In this document: positions 9,186 to 44,795 of the stretch, piece by piece
Layout: each line of letters begins with the position of its first letter
Position numbering within the stretch: the first letter of the stretch is position 1
DNA from: Bacteroidia bacterium
GTDB taxonomy: Bacteria > Bacteroidota > Bacteroidia > Flavobacteriales_E > Vicingaceae
Assembly (NCBI GenBank): GCA_030429925.1
Contig: JAUIGQ010000003.1
Coordinates: 1 to 49,570, forward strand
DNA length: 49,570 nucleotides
Direction of reading: 5' to 3'
Notes under the pieces: model-generated
Databases searched by the model: none
Seen by the model: only the letters and a program-made list of their open reading frames with translations
Told to the model about the DNA's origin: nothing
Program-made: the position numbers and the translations under genes

Positions 9186-9212
9186 ATGAATTGGTCAGCT
9201 TTTATAGGGGGT

Positions 9213-33003: not shown

Positions 33004-33076
<73 letters not shown>

Positions 33077-43443: not shown

Positions 43444-44262
43444 ATGAAGAGTGTGACGACTCCGGAGTTAAAAACTCCTATCTCCTACTATGGAGGCAAG
43501 CAAAGTATGATCAAGGATATCTTGCCCCTGATCCCAGACCATAAAATTTATGTTGAGCCCTTTTTTGGTGGAGGAGCCATCTTTTGGGCCAAGAAGCCAT
43601 CTGATATTGAAGTGATCAATGATGTGAACATGAACATCATAAACTTCAATTTGGTCCTGAAGCATAGTTACTTCGAGCTCAAGAAGAAACTAGAATCCAC
43701 TCTCCATAGCAGAGAGACATATAAAAAGGCTCTGATCATCTATGAATGTCCATGGCTGTTTGATGAGCAACCGGTTGTCCGGGCATGGGCCTTCTATACT
43801 TTGACTCAGCAAGGATTTGCTTCAAAGATTGGAACGTGGGGTTATGATCGATCCGGATCAACTAGTAAGAAGATCTCAAACAAAATAGACCAATTCACAG
43901 AAGATCTAAGCGAAAGGCTTAGGTTAGTCCAAATAGAGCAAAATGATGCGTGTAAGGTTATTAAAAGCCGAGATACAAAGGAATCATTCATCTATGCAGA
44001 TCCGCCATACGTTGGAACAAACCAAGGTCATTATGGAGGCTACACTGAGGAGCACTTTGAAGAGCTGCTCAACACTCTAAATTCATTGGAGGGAAAGTTT
44101 CTGCTCAGTTCATATCCATCAGAGCAGCTAGACTATCACATCCAAAAGAATGGATGGCACACAAAGCATCTAACTAAGACATTGAGTGCATCAAATGGAG
44201 CAAACCAGAAAACAAGAAAAAAAAAGACTGAAGTATTAACTGCGAATTACCCAATTGAATAA
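43444..44262 (+). CDS. D12-class DNA N6-adenine methyltransferase (Dam-like)
   Basis: A 272-residue Dam-family enzyme. SYYGGKQSMIKDILPLIP at the start, the AdoMet motif EPFFGGGAIF at 38-47, and the catalytic DPPYVG at 186-191 are visible. No restriction enzyme is present, so it is an orphan methylase. It could protect phage DNA from host restriction or influence phage gene control, like Mu mom but by a different chemistry. It lies in the late arm, 22 bases after the fibre gene. Confidence 0.93.
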   Translation: MKSVTTPELKTPISYYGGKQSMIKDILPLIPDHKIYVEPFFGGGAIFWAKKPSDIEVINDVNMNIINFNLVLKHSYFELKKKLESTLHSRETYKKALIIYECPWLFDEQPVVRAWAFYTLTQQGFASKIGTWGYDRSGSTSKKISNKIDQFTEDLSERLRLVQIEQNDACKVIKSRDTKESFIYADPPYVGTNQGHYGGYTEEHFEELLNTLNSLEGKFLLSSYPSEQLDYHIQKNGWHTKHLTKTLSASNGANQKTRKKKTEVLTANYPIE

Positions 44263-44267
44263 AAAGG

Positions 44268-44382
44268 CCCTCGGGCGAGTTGTCACACTCTTTAATAGAC
44301 AAAAGTCCAATCAAGTGAACTCACTCGGAGTTCAACGCCCGAGGGTAATTCTTATGATTGGACTTTTTAGAGAGTGTGACAA
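44268..44382 (+). other. Pseudoknotted inverted-repeat element near the right end
   Basis: Four perfect pairings fill 115 bases: A CCCTCGGGCG (44268-44277) with 44336-44345; B TTGTCACACTCT (44280-44291) with 44371-44382; C AAAAGTCCAATCA (44301-44313) with 44355-44367; D TGAACTC (44316-44322) with 44328-44334. Order is A B C D D' A' C' B', so A-A' crosses B and C: a pseudoknot. It lies six bases after the methylase stop and 42 bases before the last small gene. Confidence 0.75.
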
Positions 44383-44424
44383 TGTAAAAGTATACCTTAG
44401 TAATCTAATTATAAAATCGAAATT

Positions 44425-44628
44425 ATGTTTATTCAATTAACAGGAATTGGCAATACTGACCCTACGCTTGTCAATGCAGACAATATTGCCAAAATAGAAA
44501 ATGTAAATGGCAAGTCAAGAATAAGTTATAATACCTCAGGTCCAAGTGGTGGTTTGATATCTGAACAATTTGAGGAAGACATCAATACTATCTATCAAAG
44601 GCTTAAAGCTATTAATGCTATAAAATAA
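44425..44628 (+). CDS. Small right-end phage protein, unknown
   Basis: A 67-residue protein (FIQLTGIGNTDPTLVNADNI, then ISEQFEEDINTIYQRLKAIN). The two-strand start with 'VNADNI' is reminiscent of small regulators such as FlbD, but similarity is weak. It is the last gene before the right-end transposase sites and lies downstream of the pseudoknot element, which may control its translation. Confidence 0.55.
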   Translation: MFIQLTGIGNTDPTLVNADNIAKIENVNGKSRISYNTSGPSGGLISEQFEEDINTIYQRLKAINAIK

Positions 44629-44637
44629 ATTCAAAAC

Positions 44638-44673
44638 GGACATTCGGTTTTGAAAAAGTGGACATTCGGTTTT
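44638..44673. repeat. Right-end transposase sites R1 and R2
   Basis: Two copies of GGACATTCGGTTTT at 44638-44651 and 44660-44673, spaced 22 bp (two DNA turns). Reversed, they are AAAACCGAATGTCC, differing from the left-end sites by one base (A to C at the sixth position). They mark the prophage right end together with CCGACTATA just outside. Confidence 0.8.
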
Positions 44674-44795
44674 GCCGACTATACTTTACAACTGAAATAC
44701 CTATTTTGTCTACAGCTAATTACTCCTAGTTCAACTTGATGCGAAAAGTAAAATAGATCCATCTAGGCAACTGATTATTAGCAATCTATCACCCA

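Follow-up and report, generated by a model that had tools for sequence, protein, structure and literature searches.

A probable gene for a structured small RNA beside the DNA-modification genes of Mu-like phages of Bacteroidota

What is the dense cluster of base-paired segments close to the right end of a Mu-like prophage in a Bacteroidia bacterium, and from which strand is it read? The DNA analysed here (the window, 49,570 nucleotides) is one contig of an incomplete genome of 2.6 Mb in 193 contigs. The Mu-like prophage spans roughly 9.2-44.7 kb of the window and encodes a Mu-type transposase (PHROG 310). Inverted GGACATTC(T/G)GTTTTG repeats at 9212, 9305, 44639 and 44661, presumably transposase binding sites, mark both of its ends. 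A tRNA gene was also detected at 33004-33076 (Rfam, 66.7 bits), inside the late gene region. At the right end, where mom lies in Mu, the prophage carries a D12 adenine methylase gene (PF02086), and the element is located between this gene and an ORF of 67 aa, near the prophage end to which a previous sequence-only reading had assigned it.

The four perfect helices described in that reading were recovered exactly, with lengths of 10 bp (A), 12 bp (B), 13 bp (C) and 7 bp (D, 44316-44322 with 44328-44334), and together they pair 84 of the 115 bases between 44268 and 44382 (Table 1). The pairing was indeed far denser than expected by chance. Relative to dinucleotide shuffles, the folding energy of the element as RNA was lower by 7.4 SD (plus strand) and by 6.9-7.2 SD (minus strand). 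When the topology A-B-C-A'-C'-B' was searched for, the element scored 93.2, compared with best scores of 61-75 (at most 75.0) in each of 20 dinucleotide-shuffled 49.6-kb windows. As the linker between B and A has only 2 nt in the window (9-17 nt in most relatives) and A' is placed at the far end of the B+C stem of approximately 25 bp, all the helices may not coexist there without a sharp bend.

A DNA similarity search against the genomes of relatives gave short chance matches only, and protein searches found no homologues of the window methylase in IMG/VR, of the terminase in GTDB or of the small ORF in phages. Relatives were reached through the transposase, which led to related prophages whose right ends were then retrieved. 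The order A B C A' C' B' was recognized, by eye and with a topology script, in at least 12 relatives with entirely different sequences, including Winogradskyella phage Peternella_1 and Porphyromonas phage 006a. A pattern derived from the loop and tail alone was scanned over GTDB genomes and IMG/VR and matched 64 and 110 stretches, respectively. The resulting 174 loci contained 140 distinct cores, in which parts of the loop and tail are fixed by the pattern; some loci of the two sets are the same prophage, and the 140 members include related phages, forming 18 clusters at 75% identity. The named hosts of the pattern matches were almost all Flavobacteriia. In addition to the 140 distinct close members, divergent ones were found, and together they occur in phages of Flavobacterium, Chryseobacterium, Capnocytophaga, Riemerella, Winogradskyella and Porphyromonas, and one member lies in a published active phage, Flavobacterium phage fF4 (MN850656.1). 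A 33-sequence covariance model (R2), applied with strict filters to 395 genomes of the phylum, gave matches in three genomes.

At the gathering threshold, Rfam 15 detected only the tRNA gene at 33004-33076 in the window and gave no match in seven relatives. When the search was extended up to E = 10, weak matches to plant miRNA precursors appeared, which were rejected as chance similarities of the long-hairpin type. The element apparently represents an undescribed RNA family, for which no Rfam entry was found and which is carried by Mu-like phages infecting Bacteroidota. It adds at least 140 distinct versions of such an RNA to a phylum with little-known phage RNA biology.

MAFFT alone misaligned the stems, and a structural alignment was therefore bootstrapped from a one-sequence covariance model. 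Among 32 distinct aligned sequences, stems B and C showed two-sided changes in 24 of the 31 pairs, with 95.1% of the cells paired. The covariation score was 0.612, compared with 0.156 after shuffling and at most 0.067 with slid partners. Within the close family the loop-tail pseudoknot was nearly constant, in part because of how the search pattern was built, with AGAAGAC-UUAU-GUCCUCC as the constant loop; in nine divergent members, permuted tails never reached the total obtained with the members' own tails (0 of 20,000). The covariation in related Mu-like right ends, proposed earlier as a check, was accordingly positive for both the stems and the loop-tail pseudoknot, and the crossing of the nested helices by helix A is real. 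Helix D was not common to the relatives, where it was mostly absent or replaced by a short mini-hairpin.

In nearly all relatives, the sequence to the right of stem B was GCAAAnATA, corresponding on the other strand to TATnTTTGC, the -7 promoter box of Bacteroidota. The A segment on the minus strand read GGAGGAC followed by a run of T (tail GGAGGAC-U6). Both features put the RNA on the minus strand, and the plus strand adopted in the sequence-only reading was wrong. An exact minus-strand TAnnTTTG was present at the right place in 133 of the 140 distinct members, with C or T as the next base in every case, and this promoter region lay outside the search pattern. Between the tail and the next gene, plus-strand TAnnTTTG occurred in none of those 133 members (7.7 expected). 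The relatives also showed a -33-like TT peak at -23/-22. Stem B begins 1-4 nt past the -7 box in most members, which is the expected start site, and the T-run following GGAGGNC reached at least five in approximately 90% of members. The promoter, the covariation of B and C, the pseudoknot, the U-tract, the at least 140 members and the position beside modification genes, all of them computed, make it very probable that the element is a minus-strand gene for a structured small non-coding RNA of approximately 120 bases.

The wobble pairs were distributed unevenly. Internal U-G pairs of the pseudoknot on the minus strand were found in 33 of 133 members. Stems B and C were almost free of wobbles, and the few present leaned to the plus strand (A-C on the minus strand 89, versus G-U on the minus strand 27), a lean of 8 versus 2 when counted by cluster (p = 0.11). 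Since the pseudoknot wobbles point to the minus strand and the stem wobbles weakly to the plus strand, folding may occur on both strands, as it does in sense-antisense pairs. Kissing-loop YUNR motifs were set aside as too common in AT-rich sequence, as was a likeness of CTCTCAC to the direct repeats of Cas13b, the stem being too variable. Separately, CCTCC was found shortly past the tail and U-tract in 103 of 139 members (3.9 expected; loci L167-L340); it could replace the loop as the pairing partner of the tail GGAGG, which suggests an alternative structure.

The covariance model R2 matched the minus strand of the window at 44392-44260 over its full length (1-125 of 125) with 37.4 bits (E 6.5e-7 in 1.5 kb, filters off), and the plus strand with 20.5 bits only; a search with default filters missed this copy. 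Judged by its sequence, the window copy is a divergent family member. It has the topology A-B-C-A'-C'-B' with the loop-tail pseudoknot of the family, and its putative -7 box is one base off, lacking the final G of TAnnTTTG, and is followed by C. It departs from the usual layout in having the methylase gene to the left and the orphan 67-aa ORF to the right. The best plus-strand complementarity to the RNA 5' end within the prophage lay in codons 2-5 of the methylase gene. Pairing at this site is suggestive, but its 12-nt length was matched or exceeded by 13 of 60 shuffled seeds and was not significant.

Table 1. Predicted features of the RNA gene and its surroundings in the window
Feature	Position	Strand	Remarks
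Small non-coding RNA gene, ~122 nt	44261..44382	-	5' end in stem B near 44382; match of covariance model R2
RNA 3' U-tract	44265-44261	-	overlaps stop codon of upstream methylase gene
-7 promoter box TACTTTTA	44385..44392	-	family consensus TAnnTTTGY; last base of octamer differs
-33 promoter region TTTT	44413..44416	-	21-24 nt upstream of -7 box; spacing matches relatives' TT peak at -23/-22
Stem B, RNA 5' arm (UUGUCACACUCU)	44371..44382	-	
Stem B, 3' arm	44280..44291	-	
Stem C, 5' arm	44355..44367	-	
Stem C, 3' arm	44301..44313	-	
Pseudoknot loop segment a (CCCUCGGGCG)	44336..44345	-	pairs with 44268-44277 (helix A)
3' tail segment a' (CGCCCGAGGG), then CC and U-tract	44268..44277	-	
Helix D hairpin	44316..44334	-	apical-loop insertion; most relatives without it
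Segment downstream of U-tract	44244..44252	-	9 bp complementary to apical loop 44343-44351; possible counterpart of relatives' CCTCC
D12-class N6-adenine DNA methyltransferase gene	43444..44262	+	left of RNA gene; Pfam PF02086 E 6.3e-24
Methylase codons 2-5	43448..43459	+	12 nt complementary (one G-U) to RNA 5' end
67-aa ORF, no assigned function	44425..44628	+	occupies the place of relatives' modification gene; starts ~33 nt from -7 box
Two GGACATTCGGTTTTG repeats, putative right-end transposase sites	44633..44674	+	inverted copies at 9212 and 9305

In the relatives, the gene on the right-hand side of the element was assigned to a DNA-modification family in 100 of the 116 loci with a scorable ORF. 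Five unrelated kinds were found: D12 adenine methylases (48 loci), thymidylate-synthase-like proteins (21 loci), ABC ATPases, frequently accompanied by a GNAT protein in the manner of Mom-like modification (17 loci), cytosine-C5 methylases (8 loci) and the Mom family (Pfam PF25680; 6 loci). The Porphyromonas phage carried an ABC-GNAT fusion and a formyltransferase. That modification genes lie at the right end of such phages has already been noted in the paper on fF4 (PMC7761591), and the part of that paper considered here makes no mention of an RNA. The fixed place beside five unrelated kinds of genes makes the RNA the common factor of the anti-restriction locus of these phages. The start codon of the right-hand gene usually lay 8-47 nt from the -7 box, so that the leader of the modification gene is at the same time the promoter of the RNA. 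No promoter belonging to the right-hand gene itself was seen in the element.

The RNA gene and its surroundings did not vary together. RNA genes of 92-96% identity preceded different kinds of modification genes between unalignable flanks, and in 40 locus pairs the element was at least 90% identical while both flanks could not be aligned; in ten alignments examined, the common stretch was approximately 150-190 bp, centred on the element. Elsewhere, near-identical flanks carried RNA genes differing in both arms of both stems. Two prophages in one genome of Flavobacterium davisii had flanks of approximately 99.4% identity (800 bp on each side) and RNA genes of 82% identity. The same RNA in different flanks and different RNAs in the same flanks indicate that the RNA gene is exchanged or diversified separately from its surroundings. 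Stems that change while the adjoining DNA does not point to strong selection or frequent exchange acting on the RNA. Two polylysogens (G836 and G827) each contained two RNA gene copies of 98-99% identity. In the former, a Flavobacterium genome with three prophages (L374, L375 and L376), the two RNA genes were 98% identical within flanks of 88-89% identity, and that of the third prophage differed (76%); local gene conversion among these prophages is likely.

From this geometry and neighbourhood we tentatively propose, as the most likely role, that the RNA controls the modification gene of the phage by antisense pairing and road-block, a role that we rate somewhat below an even balance; for the combined statement of an RNA gene with control of the modification gene, we regard the balance as even. 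Transcription of the RNA from a host-type promoter of its own would run leftward, opposite to the late operon of the phage, and the host polymerase would make the RNA constitutively, also in the lysogen. As the RNA promoter spans both the leader and the start of the modification gene, and the RNA is antisense to read-through late transcript, the gene would be held off by both road-block and pairing until strong late transcription overrides the block. The stems would be free to vary because only their complementarity matters, and the loop and tail would stay constant because they form the conserved fold. The modification of DNA by the right-hand gene in most scored loci, by five unrelated routes, speaks for such a control, as do the presence of near-identical RNA genes before different kinds of modification genes, the short distance from the start codon to the -7 box and, in the window, the complementarity of methylase codons 2-5 to the RNA 5' end. 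The exchange of stems between near-identical phages is not predicted by a simple regulator and counts against it.

Cis-antisense RNA pairs of the CopA/CopT type offer one parallel. As in these, the hairpins are mirrored on both strands, the stems are nearly without wobbles, and the controlled gene has the sense strand as its leader. Unlike them, the element has a conserved rather than divergent loop and a loop-to-tail pseudoknot. The RNA would also be, in these phages, the counterpart of the Com/mom controls of phage Mu, where a translation inhibition structure in the mom mRNA and the zinc-finger protein Com are involved (PMC6483171). In both cases a regulatory RNA structure lies directly upstream of a DNA-modification gene at a Mu-like right end, and some relatives carry a true Mom family protein (PF25680). 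In contrast to Mu, the element has its promoter on the opposite strand, for an RNA separate from the mRNA, and the modification gene beside it can be any of five unrelated kinds. An unsystematic look at these phages gave no homologue of Com.

The exchange of alleles within unchanged flanks looks like diversifying selection, and would suit an RNA that itself counteracts a host defence, for example as a structured decoy or inhibitor, within the anti-restriction arsenal of the phage. The constitutive host-type promoter, the compact and highly structured RNA, the constant apical loop on hypervariable stems and the fixed neighbourhood of five kinds of anti-restriction genes would also fit. We nevertheless consider this candidate role unlikely, and the members searched gave no Rfam match. 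Just as doubtful, or slightly more so, is the broader proposal of a widespread class of phage RNAs with a constant loop-tail pseudoknot and hypervariable, exchangeable stems acting in this way. If true, the class would be a bacterial counterpart of viral decoy RNAs and the constant partner of a swappable anti-restriction cassette.

The same exchange data could be read at the level of DNA. The element may be a protein-binding DNA site or a recombination element, serving as an exchange hub or hairpin site for the swapping of right-end modification cassettes or as a tiny mobile unit, with the RNA secondary. The 40 locus pairs sharing it between unalignable flanks, the different alleles within near-identical flanks, and the near absence of stem wobbles, expected if DNA or both strands are selected, agree with this reading. 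However, a DNA site needs neither conserved promoter boxes nor a U-tract, the U-G pairs in the pseudoknot favour RNA, and no empty sites were found in a sampling of loci that was biased against them. We judge this explanation improbable.

Still less probable is a structure of the plus strand in the late mRNA, acting as a translation operator, an RNase-resistant end or an HDV-like ribozyme. On the plus strand the wobbles of B and C are more often of the G-U type, and a hairpin just upstream of the start of the next gene resembles the structure in Mu mom mRNA (PMC6483171). Against it stand the minus-strand promoter and U-tract and the higher score of R2 on the minus strand. Of the translation operator for the next small gene suggested in the sequence-only reading, the adjacency holds, as the element abuts the start of that gene, but the relatives speak for an independent RNA gene. 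The likeness to HDV-like ribozymes noted in the same reading lies in the plus-strand order A B C D D' A' C' B', which resembles the nesting P1-P2-P3-P3'-P1'-P2'. Unlike these ribozymes, the element has a 'P2' of 25 bp and a first pair that is G-C in most relatives, and its RNA is made from the opposite strand, on which the order B' C' A' C B A is that of an H-type pseudoknot. Neither a P4 helix nor a catalytic J4/2 was found in the window copy, whose A' and C' are separated by 9 nt that contain no helix, and the HDV-type models of Rfam gave no match at the gathering score, nor up to E = 10 for the region. A ribozyme is not supported.

The c4 RNA of P1/P7 is an antisense RNA of phage immunity (PMC12197685), and the RNA proposed here would share with it a small structured form, a putative antisense mode and a sequence that varies between related phages; it would be complementary to the leader of a modification gene, whereas c4 is complementary to an antirepressor gene. 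An immunity or incompatibility RNA whose differing alleles let related phages coexist, as the Flavobacterium davisii prophages might illustrate, is very improbable, and a strict incompatibility factor was rejected, because near-identical alleles coexist in one host in both polylysogens.

A minor observation concerns a methylase gene. At locus L027 (G411:C3), positions 1417-2292 encode a D12 adenine methylase 54% identical to that of the window, with seven in-frame TGA codons, several of them at glycine positions of the relatives. The frame is open under code 25, in which UGA is read as Gly (SR1/Gracilibacteria), and a nearby resolvase-like gene also seems to contain in-frame TGA. This methylase gene may be a contaminant, a chimera or a cassette from a bacterium using code 25.
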